64,000 bases of DNA from an uncultured Spirochaetaceae bacterium (lineage in GTDB: Bacteria > Spirochaetota > Spirochaetia > Sphaerochaetales > Sphaerochaetaceae): assembly GCA_944389105.1 (NCBI GenBank), contig CALXLD010000046.1, positions 1-64,000 of the forward strand, read 5' to 3'. The translations under genes were made by a program, and so were the position numbers. The notes under the pieces were generated by a model. That model saw only the letters and a program-made list of their open reading frames with translations, made no database searches and had not been told where the DNA came from. Positions 32,025-48,924 of the stretch are shown here, piece after piece (position 1 is the stretch's first letter; the number at the start of each line of letters is the position of its first letter).

Positions 32025-32845
32025 CACTCTCTGCCCTCAGGAAGGAGCTATTAGGGAAAATCGACCAGGTTGATGCCAGAATAATAGTACGCCTTGCAAC
32101 AGGTCTTGATGAAATCCATCAGATAACCGAATCCGGAATGGAGATAAGCAAGGAAATGTACGATAAGGCGGAATCCCTTCTAAGGATGAGACTGGAGGGA
32201 ATACCAATGGCCTATATTACAGGAGAAAAGGAATTCTTCGGCCATACCTTCCATGTAAATCCTTCAGTCCTTATACCCCGCCCCGATACCGAGACACTTG
32301 TTGAAACGGCCATAAAGCTGGCAAGGAACTTCAGAGAGCCAAGGATACTTGATTTATGTACCGGGAGCGGAGCTGTCGGAACATCAATAGCTTATGCTCT
32401 CAGCAGGGATGTTGCTATTTCAGACCTTTCAGAAAATGCTTTGAAGATCGCAGCAGAGAACTATCTCCGCATTACAGGAAAGCAGCCAGATGCCAGACTC
32501 GGCAATCTTCTTGCTCCATGGAAGGGTTCTGTTTTTGATATCATAGCTACAAATCCCCCATACCTTACTGATAAATGGTATGAGGAAACGGAGATAAGCG
32601 TAAAGAAAGAACCTGAGATGGCATTTCTAGGAGGCGGAGATGATGGGCTGGCCATTATAAGGGAAATTATTGCATCAAGCCCGGATTTTCTTTCACCAAA
32701 TGGCGTTCTTGCCATAGAGTGCGACTATCGGCAGATAGAAATATGTGGTAGTCTTCTTAAAATAAATGGATTTTCCGATATCCATATAGTAAAAGATCTT
32801 GGCGATAAGGAGCGTGTGATATATGGCAGAAGACTTCCCGAATAA
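32021..32845 (+). CDS. prmC: Release factor glutamine methyltransferase
   Basis: 274 residues. The N-terminal helical domain (about 1-75) binds the release factor. The SAM domain has [19 protein letters not shown] and the substrate motif [23 protein letters not shown] is typical. The GTG start overlaps the prfA stop as GTGA, giving direct coupling with its substrate gene. The 3' end overlaps rel by 23 nt. Confidence 0.95.
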
Positions 32846-34838
32846 AGAATTAGTCGACAAATTCGTGAAGAAGATCATACGCTACAGCGATGATGACAAG
32901 AACAAAATCGCTGCCGCTGCTGTTTTTGCTGCCAAAAAGCACGGAGATCAGAAAAGGAAGACGGGAGAACCATACATCATCCACCCAATGGCTGTTGCGG
33001 AAATACTGATGCAGATCGGGATGGATGCAGACACAGTCTCTGCAGGGCTTCTCCATGATACGCTGGAAGATACAGACACAACAGAAGAAGAGCTAGCAAC
33101 AATCTTCGGCAAAGAAGTCGGGGAAATGGTCCAGGCTGTAACGAAAATCTCCAGGATTACGGACGAGAAATCAATCCAGGAAGCAGAGACCATAAAGAAG
33201 ATGTTCTTCGCAATGTCGAAGGATCTCAGAGTCATTCTCATAAAACTGGCAGACAAGCTCCATAACATGAGGACAATCGAAGGATTGTCTCCGGAAAGGA
33301 AAAGAGCATTTGCAGAGGATTGTCTCGACATCTTCGCGCCGATTGCAGACAGCCTTGGTATGCAGACTATAAAAAGCGAGCTTGAAGACCTCTCGCTCAA
33401 GGCTCTGAAACCGGAATCCTATGATTATATCAATGGTTATCTGCTTGAGAAAAAAGGAGAGATGACTGCTTATATCAAGCAGGTATCAAAGGCAATCGCC
33501 GAAGCCTGTGCCAAGGCTGGAATCAACGACATAGAGATTACAGGCAGAGTAAAGCATGCTTATTCCATCTATCAGAAAATAAAGAAGAGGAAGAAGGAAA
33601 TCGATGAAATCTACGATATCCTAGGAATAAGGGTTATCTGCCAGACAACGGTTGAATGCTATACGATTCTTGGTGTCATCCACTCGATGTGGATCCCTAT
33701 CGAGGGAAGATTCAAGGACTATATTGCAATGCCAAAGGCAAACAACTATCAGTCTCTGCACACTACAGTCCTTGGTCCGCAGAACAGGCATCTGGAAATC
33801 CAGATAAGAACCCAGGAAATGCACAAGACCGCAGAGGAAGGCGTTGCCGCACACTGGGCCTATAAAGCAGCCTCAGGCTCCGAGTCCGGGACCTGGAAAA
33901 CCGTAGATTCAATCAACTATCAGAAGATAATCAGAAAGATCAAGACCTGGTCAAAGGAAATAGCCCAGAGCGAGGACTTCATGGATGAAATCAAGAATGA
34001 ACTTCTGAAGGATTCCATCGTTGTCTTCACTCCTCAGGGACATGTCATAGAGCTTCCTGTCGGTTCAACCGCACTGGATTTTGCATACAAAGTCCATACG
34101 GAAATCGGGAACCACTGTTCAGGAGCAAGAGCTGATGGTTCGATAATTCCTCTCAATAGGCCCCTTGGCAATACCCAGATCGTCGAGATCATGACAAGCC
34201 CCAATGCCCACCCTAACCAGCAGTGGCTTGAATATGCCCAGACAACATCGGCAAAGAAGAAGATAAGGGCATGGCTTAACAAGAATGAGCAGACAAACCT
34301 TCCGATAGCTCAGCCTAAGAAGCAACAGCAGCAGCCAAGCGCAGCGATGGAGAACGCAAAGAAAATCATTCCATCAATGCAGGGGCTCCGATTCATTTCC
34401 CATGAAAAGAAAGGTACTGTGATTATCGGAGAGAACAGCAACATACTCTTTGACTTCGCTAAATGCTGCAATCCGGTACATGGTGATGATATTGTTGCCT
34501 ACATCACAAGAGGAAGAGGCTATGTCATCCACAAAAGGGACTGCCCTAACCTTGCAAACATGCCGGAAGCCGAGGAAAGGATCGTACCTGTCGAATGGGA
34601 TAGTCAGGAACTTGTGAGAAGATTCTCAGTAACTGCCAAATTCAACTCAGAGCTTTTCAGTGAAATCGATAATGCAGTACGAAAGCATAACAGCCACCTG
34701 ATACAGGGAGCTCTTGATGTATCACCAGAGGGCCTTGTCGGAACATTTACAATAAGCGCAGACAACGAAGAAGCAATGAAGAAGACAACCCAGGCTATAA
34801 GGCAGATTCCTTCGATAATCAAAGTGCAGGGAGTATAG
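32823..34838 (+). CDS. rel: Bifunctional (p)ppGpp synthetase/hydrolase
   Basis: 671 residues in the full RSH order: HD hydrolase with His78-Asp79 in LLHDTLEDTDTT; synthetase with GRFKDYIAMPKANNYQSLHT, where the R-F-K-D charge pattern is that of bifunctional enzymes; TGS (VVFTPQGHVIELPVGSTALD); a zinc-finger-like CCNPVHGDD...RDCPN segment; and C-terminal ACT. A Gln-rich linker (KKQQQQP) is about residue 500. It adjusts ppGpp during starvation. It is the last gene of the sbcB-prfA-prmC run. Confidence 0.96.
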   Translation: MAEDFPNKELVDKFVKKIIRYSDDDKNKIAAAAVFAAKKHGDQKRKTGEPYIIHPMAVAEILMQIGMDADTVSAGLLHDTLEDTDTTEEELATIFGKEVGEMVQAVTKISRITDEKSIQEAETIKKMFFAMSKDLRVILIKLADKLHNMRTIEGLSPERKRAFAEDCLDIFAPIADSLGMQTIKSELEDLSLKALKPESYDYINGYLLEKKGEMTAYIKQVSKAIAEACAKAGINDIEITGRVKHAYSIYQKIKKRKKEIDEIYDILGIRVICQTTVECYTILGVIHSMWIPIEGRFKDYIAMPKANNYQSLHTTVLGPQNRHLEIQIRTQEMHKTAEEGVAAHWAYKAASGSESGTWKTVDSINYQKIIRKIKTWSKEIAQSEDFMDEIKNELLKDSIVVFTPQGHVIELPVGSTALDFAYKVHTEIGNHCSGARADGSIIPLNRPLGNTQIVEIMTSPNAHPNQQWLEYAQTTSAKKKIRAWLNKNEQTNLPIAQPKKQQQQPSAAMENAKKIIPSMQGLRFISHEKKGTVIIGENSNILFDFAKCCNPVHGDDIVAYITRGRGYVIHKRDCPNLANMPEAEERIVPVEWDSQELVRRFSVTAKFNSELFSEIDNAVRKHNSHLIQGALDVSPEGLVGTFTISADNEEAMKKTTQAIRQIPSIIKVQGV

Positions 34839-34912
34839 CTTTAACACAGTTCATGCAAAAAACCTGAGATGACAATCTACAAATTCTGATCAAACTATCC
34901 ACAATCTTTTAA

Positions 34913-34941
34913 GTGACATAAAAACACTTTGAATATATTAT
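34913..34941 (+). promoter_or_regulatory. Promoter of the poly-G lipoprotein gene
   Basis: GTGACA (34913-34918), 17 nt, TATTAT (34936-34941). GGAGG (34950-34954) lies 9 nt before the ATG at 34964. Confidence 0.6.
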
Positions 34942-34963
34942 TCGAAAGCGGAGGTGTTTTTCT

Positions 34964-36697
34964 ATGCTTAATCGTAAAAGCTTCAGATTAGGGAAAACCA
35001 GTTTTTTACTTATAATACTCGTATTTATCTTTGTAGGGGGGGGGTGTAAACAAGTAACATATCTTCCACCGATTCCTGTCACAAGAACATGGACAGTGAC
35101 TATTTCGCCAAATCCATCCGGAATTATTGATGATCTTACTTATACACAAAGTACAGCTAATGATTTTATTTTCCCAGATATTTCAGCAGATGGATATATT
35201 TTTTACCATTATGAGACATCCGATGGAACAATTTATTATCCAGGCGACAGTCTCTCCTATAGCGGAACCAAAAATATAGAAATAACTGCAAGGTTTATAC
35301 AATCAACACCAATAGAACCTGCGGACCCTTCATCAGGAATATCAATAAGAACGATTATTTCAGAAAAGAATGGAGAGCCCGTTGCGTTAAGTCTACCAGA
35401 GAATGAATATACAGAAACAGACCCAATTCAAATCGCGGATAATCAGATTGTAATTATTGAAGGAAACGATTCAGCACAAAACAATCTTAGCCAAAGCCGT
35501 GCGGTTTCCAATTCTAAAAAAGTGACAAGGATCATAGGAACATTTGAACTTGGAACTGGATCTACTTTAATCCTTCGAAATATAGGACTTTCCTCTACAA
35601 CCACAGGAGACTACCTTATATCAGGTACGGCAGGAGGAGTATCAATAGAAGTTGATGATTCAATCCTAACAACTCCATCTGGCGGACGGGCGATAAACGT
35701 AGCAGTAGAATCAGATTATGATTCACCTGTAAGTGTAATCGCAAAAGACTCTACCATAGAAATGGTAGGACAAAATGCAAGGGGAATTAATATCGATGGA
35801 GATGTATCTCAAAATATGATACCAGGAAAAATGCTTACAAATGCCTCTCTTATCCTCGACAATACGGAATTAATAGAACGGACAGACGCAACAACAACCG
35901 ATGGAATGGTATATGCAATAAATCTATTCAGGATTGATCAAGCTGATTTATCAATTATCAATGGAAGCCGGATTCAGATTGATAGTAAATATTACTATGG
36001 ATTCAGGTTCTATCATGTAGGAAATTCAGAAACAGAAAGTACTATTACAATCGATAATTCCTATATAAAAGCCTGGTCCTCTTTCTATATTCAAGCCAAT
36101 TCAAAAAATATTCGCGGATATGTTACAGATAGTACACTGGAAGGAATTAATCAAAGTGATGGCTCTTCTGATTCATTTGCTACTGTTGCAATAGATTCAA
36201 GCTCCGATTGCAATGTCACACTAGAAAACTCTACAATCATATTCACACAGCAAGGACTTGCAGAACAGCAAGCAGCAGCAATTTACTATTATGATAATAC
36301 AGGGCTTTCAGGTGGAAACTCCATAGAATTTGTCAACTGCGATTTTGAAATTTCCGTACCAGGAGGAGAACTTCCTGCAGTGCAAGCATATTATGACAAC
36401 TTTATAACATGCAACGGCACTTCAATTTCACCACGAATACCTAACCGGATCTCAATTGACAATTCTTCGTTAAATTCTCTGATATCACAAGGTTATACCT
36501 TCTCTAGCGAAACATTCTATTACAGTATAGACCCAAGCTTTGGTGATGATATTTCAGGAGAAGACAAAGATGGATATACCAGAATTCCATATAATAAGTC
36601 ATGCCTCTACAATCCAGCCATAGGAAGCGCAAATAGAGAAAGAGATAATAAGAGTTATCAAAATCAGCAAACAGTTATGCTTTTGGATATAAACTAA
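34964..36697 (+). CDS. Phase-variable lipoprotein with beta-helix-like repeats
   Basis: 577 residues. The leader (hydrophobic SFLLIILVFIFVGGGC) ends in a relaxed spirochaete-type lipobox. An Ig- or listeria-repeat-like domain follows (about 45-110: WTVTISPNPSGI to SLSYSGTKNIEITARF), then a long region of parallel beta-helix-like repeats (about 180-500) with phrases such as SIEVDDSILTT, LILDNTELIE and VTLENSTIIF. It is AT-richer than its neighbours (accessory character). A (G)9 run lies in the signal peptide codons; 8 or 10 G give stops within a few codons. A surface adhesin or glycan-binding role is inferred. Confidence 0.85.
   Translation: MLNRKSFRLGKTSFLLIILVFIFVGGGCKQVTYLPPIPVTRTWTVTISPNPSGIIDDLTYTQSTANDFIFPDISADGYIFYHYETSDGTIYYPGDSLSYSGTKNIEITARFIQSTPIEPADPSSGISIRTIISEKNGEPVALSLPENEYTETDPIQIADNQIVIIEGNDSAQNNLSQSRAVSNSKKVTRIIGTFELGTGSTLILRNIGLSSTTTGDYLISGTAGGVSIEVDDSILTTPSGGRAINVAVESDYDSPVSVIAKDSTIEMVGQNARGINIDGDVSQNMIPGKMLTNASLILDNTELIERTDATTTDGMVYAINLFRIDQADLSIINGSRIQIDSKYYYGFRFYHVGNSETESTITIDNSYIKAWSSFYIQANSKNIRGYVTDSTLEGINQSDGSSDSFATVAIDSSSDCNVTLENSTIIFTQQGLAEQQAAAIYYYDNTGLSGGNSIEFVNCDFEISVPGGELPAVQAYYDNFITCNGTSISPRIPNRISIDNSSLNSLISQGYTFSSETFYYSIDPSFGDDISGEDKDGYTRIPYNKSCLYNPAIGSANRERDNKSYQNQQTVMLLDIN
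35036..35044 (+). repeat. (G)9 tract inside the lipoprotein signal peptide
   Basis: Nine G encode Gly-Gly-Gly just before the lipobox Cys. With 10 G the frame reads GTG TAA; with 8 G it reads GGT GTA AAC AAG TAA. Each length change of one gives a stop codon, so slipped-strand mispairing would switch the protein on or off. Confidence 0.85.
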
Positions 36698-36717
36698 TCC
36701 ATTACTGAAATTCAAAA

Positions 36718-36750
36718 AATGAGGTTGCTTATATAAAAAGCAGCCTCATT
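36718..36750. terminator. Strong hairpin terminator between converging genes
   Basis: A 13-bp stem (AATGAGGTTGCTT with AAGCAGCCTCATT, one G-U pair) and a 7-nt loop. On the minus strand TTTTTTG follows, so it mainly ends ppaC transcription; it can also serve the lipoprotein gene. Confidence 0.8.
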
Positions 36751-36765
36751 GGTAAATAAACACAA

Positions 36766-38397
36766 TTACTCCTCAAGCACTCTCAGTATCTCAGGAAGGA
36801 GCTGTTTCTTTCTTGAAAGTACACCTGGAAGGTTGTAAATTCCATCTTCGATTCTCTCATAAATCAGATAATGGCTCTTTTCAAAAGGTGTCATCAGAAG
36901 AACTGAATTTCCCTTGATTACATCGGAGATAAGCAGCATACACCAATCCAGGGCTTTCTCTTCTCTTATCCTCTCCAATGTATCCAGATACCTTCCACTT
37001 ATATCAGGTACTTCCATAAGGGACATGACCTCAACCTGTCCGATTGCAAATCTCACACCCTTCTCTGTATATGATTTCATATCACCTGTGATTACCTTCT
37101 CAGGATCTCTTTCAGAAAGAGAGGAGCCATCAGAGAAAAGCTCACGCCCGAAAGTTTCATAATCCTCAACACCGCTTATCTCGCAAAGCCGCCTTGCTAC
37201 ATGTTCATCATAGCTTGTGGTAGTTGGGCTTTTGAGAATAACTGTATCGGCAGTAAGTCCTGAAAGCAGCACCCTTGCAGTAAGAGGGTCTATATCCACG
37301 CCCCACTTCTTGAACTGCTCGTAAATAATCGTGCAGGTAGAACCAAGAGGCTCTGAGACAATATAAATAGGTGTCTTCATCCGAGGTGGAGCAAGACGGT
37401 GATGATCAAGAATCTCCGTAATCTCTGCATCCTCTATTCCCTGCACGCTCTGCTCTACCTCGTTATGGTCAACAAGGATAAGACGCTGTCTGGGCTTGTC
37501 AAGGAAGCAACGTCTGGTGACAAATCCTGACCATTCACCTTTGTCGAAAACCGAAAACCCTCTGTAGCCGCTTTCCTGAAGTTTCTTCTTTGCCTCATCA
37601 AAAAGCATTGAAGATTCAATGCACATATCAGGATCTTCCTCTGGCAGGATATCAGAAACAGGTGTCGAAAGCCTGAGAAGCCGAAGCGTCTCAACAGTAT
37701 CAAGCAGTGAAAGATAGACAAAGCCATTGAATGAGGAGAAATCAATATCCATCCTTGAAGGATCCGTAACCCCTGTTATGACAATACCTGGAAGCTGCTC
37801 CTCTATTGCAGTCTTCAGGTGCTCCTTACGATATCCAATTACCAGTACTGGCTTATCTACAAGCCTTTCAAGACGATCTCTGTATACCTGATACTCCATG
37901 GCACCAACCATATATGGAGCTCTTACTTTCGTAGCATTTCCCCTTTTCAGGAACTCTCCCTCGATGACCCTTTCGATATTCTCTTCAGATAGCAGATACT
38001 TCTGCCTTATTGCTCCGCTGTTCTCCCTCAGGAAAAACCCATTGATGTCATCAGCTGAAAGCAAGCCTTTATAAACACCATCATCCATTACAGGAACGAC
38101 TGATGGTCTTTTTCTCTGGAAAATATCCATCAGAAGATACAGAGGATCGGATGACGAGACAGTATCCACAGGCTTTCTCTGGACCTCTCCTACTCTGGTC
38201 CTTACATCACGCAGAAACCGCGGCAGCTCAATACCCATTTTAGCAAATGCATTTTTTGTGTTGCCATTTGCGGTGCCAAGCATTACTGGTATATATTCAT
38301 TGCTGCTATCTATTCTGTTTTTCAGCACGGCATAGGAATATGCAGCGCAGACTGAATCCATATCCGGATTCCTGTGTCCTGTGATATATATTCTCAT
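36766..38397 (-). CDS. ppaC: Manganese-dependent inorganic pyrophosphatase with CBS-DRTGG insert
   Basis: 543 residues of the DHH family II pyrophosphatase. The metal motifs are GHRNPDMDSVCAAY, LILVDHNE and ILDHHR. Between the N-terminal half-domain and DHH continuation lie CBS motifs (RPSVVPVMDDGVYKGLLSAD; later GYRGFSVFDKGEWSGFVT) and a DRTGG-like domain (DKPVLVIGYRKEHLKTAI). Such enzymes are controlled by adenine nucleotides. The C-terminal DHHA2 domain is present. The ATG has TAACAT 6 nt upstream and no Shine-Dalgarno sequence. Divergent from rpiB. Confidence 0.94.
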   Translation of the reverse strand: MRIYITGHRNPDMDSVCAAYSYAVLKNRIDSSNEYIPVMLGTANGNTKNAFAKMGIELPRFLRDVRTRVGEVQRKPVDTVSSSDPLYLLMDIFQRKRPSVVPVMDDGVYKGLLSADDINGFFLRENSGAIRQKYLLSEENIERVIEGEFLKRGNATKVRAPYMVGAMEYQVYRDRLERLVDKPVLVIGYRKEHLKTAIEEQLPGIVITGVTDPSRMDIDFSSFNGFVYLSLLDTVETLRLLRLSTPVSDILPEEDPDMCIESSMLFDEAKKKLQESGYRGFSVFDKGEWSGFVTRRCFLDKPRQRLILVDHNEVEQSVQGIEDAEITEILDHHRLAPPRMKTPIYIVSEPLGSTCTIIYEQFKKWGVDIDPLTARVLLSGLTADTVILKSPTTTSYDEHVARRLCEISGVEDYETFGRELFSDGSSLSERDPEKVITGDMKSYTEKGVRFAIGQVEVMSLMEVPDISGRYLDTLERIREEKALDWCMLLISDVIKGNSVLLMTPFEKSHYLIYERIEDGIYNLPGVLSRKKQLLPEILRVLEE

Positions 38398-47372: not shown

Positions 47373-47564
47373 CTATCTGGCTCCCCTACTTGCCCAGGAT
47401 AAATCTCCTACAGCATATTTCCGCTTATATTCCCGAACTGTATATACATTCAATCCGGCAATCTGAGCAACTTTTTTATATCCGTATCCCTGCTCAAAGA
47501 GCTTAAGGCACTCCCGACGTTTAACGTTTGGAATCCTTTTCCTGAGGGACGTTGTTTCACTCAT
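47373..47564 (-). CDS. Small helix-turn-helix protein
   Basis: 63 residues. The ATG at 47564 has GGAGG 5 nt upstream. The core KRRECLKLFEQGYGYKKVAQ, then IAGLNVYTVREYKRKYAVG, is an HTH of the type seen in IS3 OrfA-like and Hin-recombinase-like DNA-binding domains. No transposase catalytic part or inverted repeats lie around it. It is the middle gene between two lipoprotein genes, so it may be a regulator or a domesticated remnant. Confidence 0.75.
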   Translation of the reverse strand: MSETTSLRKRIPNVKRRECLKLFEQGYGYKKVAQIAGLNVYTVREYKRKYAVGDLSWASRGAR

Positions 47565-47626
47565 TTCGCCCTCCTCAGAACGAGGGTCTGCAAATCTAAT
47601 CGATAAACAGACCCAAGAACTCAAAG

Positions 47627-48862
47627 TCAAACTACACCATCGAGAACTACGGAGTAAGACTTATCAAAAGCAACTCCACCAACATATCCATATACTCTGA
47701 TTGAATATGTCTCATAATCCGTGTAATCAGAAAGATCAACTGGGCTCAGAGTGTAGTAATTCTTTGCATCTGTTGGATTACCTGTACCATTCCAGAAACT
47801 GACAGTACCGGTAGCATTTGTTCCACTGAGCATCTTTGCACTTACAGTTATAGACGGTGTAGTTCCCTGTGCTGAATAATCGATATTGTCGAGTGTATTC
47901 ACACCTGTTACCGTTATGGTCTCTGGATCAACTGCATCTTCTCTTACTGGAACACTGAAAGTAGCAGTTCTAGTAAGGTTCTGGATACCATTAGCTCCAA
48001 CATACTTCACACTTACAGGAATTGCAGATGTTGTATCAGCTGTTGCTATATAAGTTGCAATATTACCTGCCTGATATGAACCAGAAATATTAAGGAACCG
48101 AATACCAGTGTCTGAACCAAATGCTACAGTCTCTCCTCCCTGATATGTCAGAGCGAGATAAAGTCCTTCTGTCTCATTGTCTGTTCCGACGTTAGTTGCC
48201 CATTTAGCAGCATTGTGTCCACTAACTCCTGCATACAGAGTATAATCCTCAGTCATAGCAGATACGAGTGATAATACAAGGTTTTCCTGAACATCGATAG
48301 TATAAGTATCTGTCATTTCACCAAAGGAAACAACAACATCCTTATCCTCTCCAGCAGTCCAATCTTCCTCTAAGGCAAGATTAAAATCAACCTGATCGTT
48401 AGCAATTACCTTAGAACCACCTTCATACTCAGCTGTTACAACAATACCTGTTTTATCGATGTCACGAGTTGTAGGAAGAGCCTTTCCGTTTACATCTGTA
48501 CCCGCTGGAAGCACAGCATAGTAAACAGCTGTTGATCCTGTTGCATCTACAGAAAGCCCTGTGATGTCTTCAAAATCAACTACAACACTGTTAGCAACAG
48601 GCATACCCATATAAGTCATAGTATATCTATTGCTTCCGGCTGGATAAAATGCAATCTTACTTGCATCAATAGAAACAGCTTCTCCAAGGTTTGTGTATCC
48701 TACAAATGAGAATCCATCAGCTGTAGGAGTTTCACCATCTACATACACAGCTGTCTGTGTTGCTTCAATTGAGTATACCATTCCGCTTGGTGTATTGTTG
48801 TCACATGCAACAAAACCAAACAGCATAAGTGCACACAGCACTCCAATGAATACTTTTTTCAT
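47627..48862 (-). CDS. Lipoprotein with Ig-like repeats under a poly-G promoter
   Basis: 411 residues. Leader KKVFIGVLCALMLFGFVAC with lipobox FVAC. The mature part contains Ig-like (bacterial Big-type) repeats, e.g. SIEATQTAVYVDGETPTADG, GIVVTAEYEGGSKVI and ETITVTGVNTLDNIDYSAQG. GGAGG lies 9 nt before the ATG. The promoter has a (G)9 run between -35 and -10, so expression is likely phase variable. It is followed by the small HTH gene and beta-helix lipoprotein (3). A surface-exposed role is inferred. Confidence 0.85.
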   Translation of the reverse strand: MKKVFIGVLCALMLFGFVACDNNTPSGMVYSIEATQTAVYVDGETPTADGFSFVGYTNLGEAVSIDASKIAFYPAGSNRYTMTYMGMPVANSVVVDFEDITGLSVDATGSTAVYYAVLPAGTDVNGKALPTTRDIDKTGIVVTAEYEGGSKVIANDQVDFNLALEEDWTAGEDKDVVVSFGEMTDTYTIDVQENLVLSLVSAMTEDYTLYAGVSGHNAAKWATNVGTDNETEGLYLALTYQGGETVAFGSDTGIRFLNISGSYQAGNIATYIATADTTSAIPVSVKYVGANGIQNLTRTATFSVPVREDAVDPETITVTGVNTLDNIDYSAQGTTPSITVSAKMLSGTNATGTVSFWNGTGNPTDAKNYYTLSPVDLSDYTDYETYSIRVYGYVGGVAFDKSYSVVLDGVV

Positions 48863-48893: not shown

Positions 48894-48924
48894 ACTCTAC
48901 CCCCCCCCGGTTCAGTTTTGTCAA
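48894..48924 (-). promoter_or_regulatory. Phase-variable promoter with (G)9 spacer
   Basis: TTGACA (48924-48919), 19 nt, TAGAGT (48899-48894). The last nine spacer bases are G, so the spacing is 19 with 9 G, 18 with 8 and 17 (optimal) with 7. TAGAGT also serves as -10 in the infA and prs promoters here. A leader of about 25 nt with GGAGG leads to the ATG at 48862. Confidence 0.8.
48900..48908 (-). repeat. (G)9 tract in a promoter spacer
   Basis: Nine consecutive G on the minus strand (C on the plus strand), directly upstream of the -10. Together with 35036-35044 these are the only G/C homopolymers of 8 or more noticed in the window. Confidence 0.9.

Follow-up and report, generated by a model that had tools for sequence, protein, structure and literature searches.

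Poly-G phase variation has been studied mainly in pathogens. In Treponema pallidum, poly-G tracts of ~7 to 11 residues lie in the promoters of genes for surface proteins, among them tp0126 and tprE, tprG, tprJ, and tprL, and in tp0126 the tract is placed between the −35 and −10 elements, for which a total spacing of 17 nt is optimal (PMC7864442). A poly-G tract between the −35 and −10 elements of Neisseria porA likewise alters spacing and transcription (PMC7864442). A different arrangement, in which the homopolymer lies in the open reading frame and only every third tract length leaves the gene ON, is described for Neisseria hmbR and hpuA and for Campylobacter (PMC3786947, PMC8355987).

Here, we analyzed a 64,000-nt stretch of DNA (the window) from an uncultured gut spirochaete, which we place in Candidatus Ornithospirochaeta, as that genus is defined by the genome collection, because a Candidatus Ornithospirochaeta stercoripullorum contig matches one relative (G034) without a difference over 2,965 bases. 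An earlier note on this DNA had singled out a (G)9 tract in a lipoprotein signal peptide as an on/off switch and had called poly-G slippage an established mechanism, including in Treponema, for which the T. pallidum work provides the precedent (PMC7864442). We concluded, with a probability of about 0.88, that this tract is a phase-variable contingency locus that changes by slipped-strand mispairing and that it is one of ~20 lipoprotein poly-G switches in the genome. The reading of the tract as a switch in the earlier note was supported, and it is extended here as to the number of such loci.

The target tract lies in a reading frame, as do those of Neisseria hmbR and hpuA and of Campylobacter, whereas the T. 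pallidum tracts lie in promoters. The proteins also differ. T. pallidum switches Tpr and OmpW proteins, whereas the genes here belong to a gut genus that is uncultured and encode lipoproteins; and whereas the reading-frame tracts of Neisseria and Campylobacter are found in haemoglobin receptor genes and largely in surface-modifying genes, respectively, the tract in this genome is situated within or next to a lipoprotein signal peptide. Furthermore, porA is one major porin gene, whereas here the same promoter layout is common to many lipoprotein genes. The poly-G mechanism (textbook knowledge) and the poly-G promoters of T. pallidum are already known; what is apparently new is a genus-wide set of lipoprotein switches in gut spirochaetes that includes both promoter and frame switches, and this set of ~20 is of more interest than the target gene alone. 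In the literature searched (open-licence papers, mostly not as full text), phase variation was not linked to Ornithospirochaeta or Bullifex.

An in-frame G9 tract in a predicted lipoprotein gene

The target gene (positions 34964 to 36697, forward strand) is predicted to encode a 577-amino-acid lipoprotein and is preceded by a Shine-Dalgarno-like GGAGGTG (34950 to 34957, forward strand) upstream of its ATG at 34964. A weak promoter-like site, GTGACA-17-TATTAT (34913 to 34941, forward strand), was found by consensus match, and sites of this type occur in numbers close to those in shuffled sequence. Past the stop codon we noticed by eye an inverted repeat, AATGAGGTTGCT...AGCAGCCTCATT (36719 to 36755, forward strand), which may be a terminator or a 3′ hairpin, and which neither the terminator scan nor the repeat scan reported.

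The protein begins MLNRKSFRLGKTSFLLIILVFIFVGGGCKQ, so that its N terminus can be read as MLNRKSFRLGKTSFLLIILVFIFV-GGG-C. The signal peptide has a basic start (MLNRKSFRLGK), a hydrophobic core, and the sequence VGGGC, which conforms to the spirochaetal lipobox with Cys28 as the predicted lipidated residue, and this cysteine is invariant in a comparison with three homologues. The Gly at position −3 is not typical of a lipobox, so that lipidation is likely but not certain. The protein matched no Pfam or NCBIfam family, and a single-sequence structure model consisted mostly of strands at low confidence (mean pLDDT, 38). Such a model is too weak to identify a fold; the description of the protein as beta-helix-like in the earlier note is weakly supported, and we regard a beta-helix fold as a guess. 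We infer that the lipoprotein is surface exposed.

As the earlier note had stated, the G9 tract (35036 to 35044, forward strand) encodes a glycine triplet, Gly25 to Gly27, that directly abuts the predicted lipobox Cys28. Reading the frame at 8, 9, and 10 G confirmed the consequences claimed for single-base changes: at 9 G the codons GGG GGG GGG are in frame and the gene is open (ON), at 10 G the tract reads GGG GGG GGG GTG TAA and translation meets a stop immediately, and at 8 G it reads GGG GGG GGT GTA AAC AAG TAA, with the stop four codons on. Gains or losses of two G also stop translation, but gains or losses of three (6 or 12 G) leave the frame open, so that a change silences the gene unless it adds or removes G in threes. 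By frame reading, therefore, a single-residue change at this position is predicted to alter expression. Such a run of glycine codons is unusual here, since GGG accounts for only 59 of the 443 glycine codons in 14 genes of the window. The window as a whole is not extreme in G runs, with 7 overlapping G7 words compared with a mean of 3.6 in its dinucleotide shuffles.

The target gene lies between a spoT/relA gene on its left (32823 to 34838, forward strand) and, on its right, an inorganic pyrophosphatase-like gene (36766 to 38397, reverse strand), which we take, from general knowledge of such sequences, to be of the DHH type and which served as a synteny marker. In 15 of 18 relatives (counting those with both neighbor genes in the stretch examined), the spoT and pyrophosphatase genes end within ~40 bp of each other with no lipoprotein gene between them, whereas in the window they are separated by a 1.9-kb piece carrying the target gene (34839 to 36765). 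The other three relatives (L244, L245, and L248) have different pieces at this junction, and the target gene was absent from it in all of the relatives checked; consequently, these relatives offer no syntenic orthologue in which to follow conservation of the tract. To judge from this comparison, the junction accepts inserts, and the target gene appears to be an insertion specific to this lineage. A repeat scan found no convincing repeats flanking it, and a search of viral contigs with the target protein and the promoter pattern returned nothing, giving no link to phages and no variants from the same species.

Long G tracts are concentrated at lipoprotein genes

We counted G/C runs by pattern across the genome (2.13 Mb in 47 contigs). 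Overlapping G6, G7, G8, and G9 words numbered 169, 82, 50, and 25, respectively, from which, together with the listed places, we derived exact runs of 6, 7, 8, 9, 10, and 12 residues numbering 55, 7, 6, 15, 3, and 1. The homopolymers thus exceed chance length: 19 runs of at least 9 residues were observed, compared with ~0.1 expected by simple decay (the step from 6 to 7 being ~0.13), and the distribution peaks at 9, which random decay would not produce.

These runs are placed mostly on lipoprotein genes. An automatic rule that called for a lipoprotein ORF start within 160 bases of the tract tied 18 of the 25 runs of at least 8 residues to lipoprotein-gene 5′ ends, and the number rose to 20 by hand with the addition of L048:4001 and L048:6804, lipoprotein genes whose out-of-frame state had hidden them from the rule. 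By comparison, the same link was found for 5% of random sites within the window, for ~2% of those drawn from other loci, and for 1 of 25 G/C5 runs; the binomial probability of 18 in 25 at a 5% background is ~1e-18.

These counts bear on an alternative explanation, that the target tract is no more than a stable stretch of three GGG codons for glycine within a signal peptide, with no regulatory meaning. Glycine is acceptable at lipobox positions −1 and −2, the gene as assembled is open, and MutS is present, all of which would suit stable codons. That explanation nevertheless seems very unlikely to us, as it leaves unexplained the genome-wide excess and peak of 9-G runs, their concentration at lipoprotein 5′ ends, and the OFF alleles of its sister loci and homologues described below.

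We also asked whether the abundance of tracts might stem from a missing MutS. Loss of mismatch repair speeds slippage in some phase-variable bacteria, but MutS is present throughout the genus, so that this cause is not supported and high slippage rates of that origin are not expected.

Candidate switches in promoter spacers and in reading frames

About half of the tracts in the genome sit in promoter spacers with the layout TTGACA-N-Gn-TANNNT, mostly with spacers of 17 to 20 nt. A TANNNT box directly follows 16 of the 25 tracts of this genome, and for tracts from nine further species the figure is 34 of 61, compared with 4 of 173 shorter G runs. The window itself holds one, a second G9 tract (48900 to 48908, reverse strand) that lies 13.9 kb from the target tract and had been missed in the earlier note. 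It lies within the putative promoter TTGACA-AAACTGAACC-G9-TAGAGT (48894 to 48924, reverse strand; boxes assigned by consensus only; spacer, 19 nt), ahead of the gene for a 411-amino-acid lipoprotein (MKKVFIGVLCALMLFGFVAC; 47627 to 48862, reverse strand). With its poly-G between the putative −35 and −10 elements, this tract, also from a spirochaete, shares the anatomy of tp0126 and is probably a transcriptional switch. By analogy with tp0126, for which 17 nt is the optimal spacing, many 9-G promoter alleles with a 19-nt spacer may be low or OFF.

A small ORF with an HTH-like end (KKVAQIAGLNVYTVREYKRKY; 47373 to 47630, reverse strand) lies between two lipoprotein genes in this region and is possibly the remnant of a mobile element.

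Other tracts lie inside the 5′ end of an ORF, in the signal-peptide region, as in the target gene. Within the one assembly, the frame is ON at the target gene, L039, and L047 and OFF at L046 and L048:6804 (both ON at 8 G) and at L048:4001 (ON at 10 G), and the OFF alleles keep a long intact frame downstream. ON and OFF sister loci side by side are what phase variation predicts, although, as the genomes are metagenome-assembled, some of the OFF calls could be assembly errors.

The intact frames downstream of OFF alleles are predicted by phase variation and also fit the alternative that slippage by RNA polymerase or the ribosome yields some full-length protein at every tract length, such that the tract tunes the amount of protein rather than switching it on and off. 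Long homopolymers are slip-prone for polymerases generally, which lends this explanation some weight. It is unlikely, however, given that promoter spacers hold about half of the tracts, and there slippage on the message would have no coding effect.

Tract length in homologues and relatives

The earlier note had suggested comparing tract lengths in related genomes, and they are not all nine G, although the homologues compared are distant and come from other species. Homologues of the target protein in other species are 26 to 28% identical over the aligned length and show three switch layouts and several tract lengths: in G023 a G11 tract in the signal peptide closes the frame (OFF), in G033 a C10 tract does so (OFF), the frames of both being open at 9 or 12, and in G008 a G9 tract lies in a promoter spacer. 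Length variation with ON and OFF alleles, as expected of a contingency locus, is thus found among sister loci and distant homologues, rather than within one gene of one species.

A closer comparison was provided by five promoter-leader modules from three species, whose flanks are near identical and whose tracts have 8, 9, 9, 10, and 10 G; in four of the five, the 100 nt downstream are identical. Where the flanks agree, tract length is the only difference. This finding weighs against the idea, which concerns the promoter tracts only, that the G run is the operator of a CsoR/RcnR-type repressor and not a length switch. Operators of that type do contain G tracts, but length here ranges from 8 to 12 and changes while the flanks stay identical, and the intragenic tracts have no such context, so that we give the operator explanation very little credence.

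The proteins encoded at the modules have a common signal peptide, past which they diverge. As a side observation, promoter, leader, and signal peptide at L065, L067, L074, L121, and L131 are identical over at least 100 nt across species and paralogues, while the mature lipoproteins differ, a pattern that suggests modular exchange of leaders among lipoprotein genes.

Across the genus (48 species), every species had at least one G9 word, with a range from 1 to more than 50. Of 248 genomes in the class, 33, representing 12 of 101 genera, contained the pattern TTGACA-N7-12-G8-N0-4-TANNNT, and its reversed control gave one match in all. The layout was also found in G220 and G058, which are few-contig genomes from other genera. 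The assembly under study is fragmented and several tracts lie close to contig ends, as might be expected if tract length were a consensus or sequencing artefact of metagenome assembly; the recurrence of the same architecture in many independent assemblies, and in the few-contig genomes, makes such an artefact scarcely credible.

Proposed mechanism and significance

In the phase-variation reading, slipped-strand mispairing during replication would add or remove a G in the target tract. At a tract length not divisible by three, translation would end no more than four codons past the tract, ahead of the mature protein, leaving a cell without this surface lipoprotein until a later slip restored expression; reversible switching within a population is our inference. 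With ~20 poly-G switches of the promoter-spacer and frame kinds, single cells may show different sets of lipoproteins. The rate of slippage, the exposure of the proteins at the surface, and a benefit in escape from immunity or phages are presumed here.

A broader reading, for which we would offer slightly less than even odds, is that the gut spirochaetes of this genus possess a combinatorial system of ~20 independently switching lipoproteins that combines promoter-spacer and frame switches, with a promoter-leader module (identical over at least 100 nt across species) set on ever-changing mature proteins. Because the tract of the target lies inside its lipobox, in-frame changes of length (VGGC with 6 G, GGGC with 9 G) might alter lipidation as well.

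Poly-G switching would in this case belong to a genus of gut spirochaetes known through metagenomic sequence, with most of the long G tracts of the genome placed on lipoprotein genes. If confirmed, the system would offer ~20 switchable surface proteins with which to ask what drives switching in the gut (host immunity, phages, or niche change). It would also give warning that surveys of gene presence in such genomes present a wrong picture of surface protein expression.

Similar tracts at other genes

In the same genome, a G9 tract lies just upstream of a PapD-like (periplasmic chaperone-like) gene (L040), whose counterpart in another species (L166) has G10. Another spirochaete genus (g66 of family f24; genomes G164, G214, and G220) has up to ~10 TTGACA-N-poly-G-TANNNT promoters per genome.

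About 20 assemblies of Lachnospiraceae and other Clostridia (L089 to L141; Dorea, Sellimonas, Roseburia, Coprococcus, and others) carry TTGACAAAANNNNACC-G8-11-TATAAT-like promoters. Found with a stricter form of the pattern, these mostly have TATAAT-like boxes and precede genes for secreted and other proteins; they are possibly an undescribed set of switches in gut Clostridia.

Finally, one genome (G018) has two tracts in genes of a different kind. A helicase-like ORF (ACGTGKTYTSL...; L194) contains a coding G10 tract, is out of frame as assembled, and would be open at G9, so that it is possibly a phase-variable restriction or defence gene. An HsdS-like specificity gene (L192) has an in-frame G9 tract, and in-frame poly-G tracts in specificity genes are known from phase-variable restriction systems.
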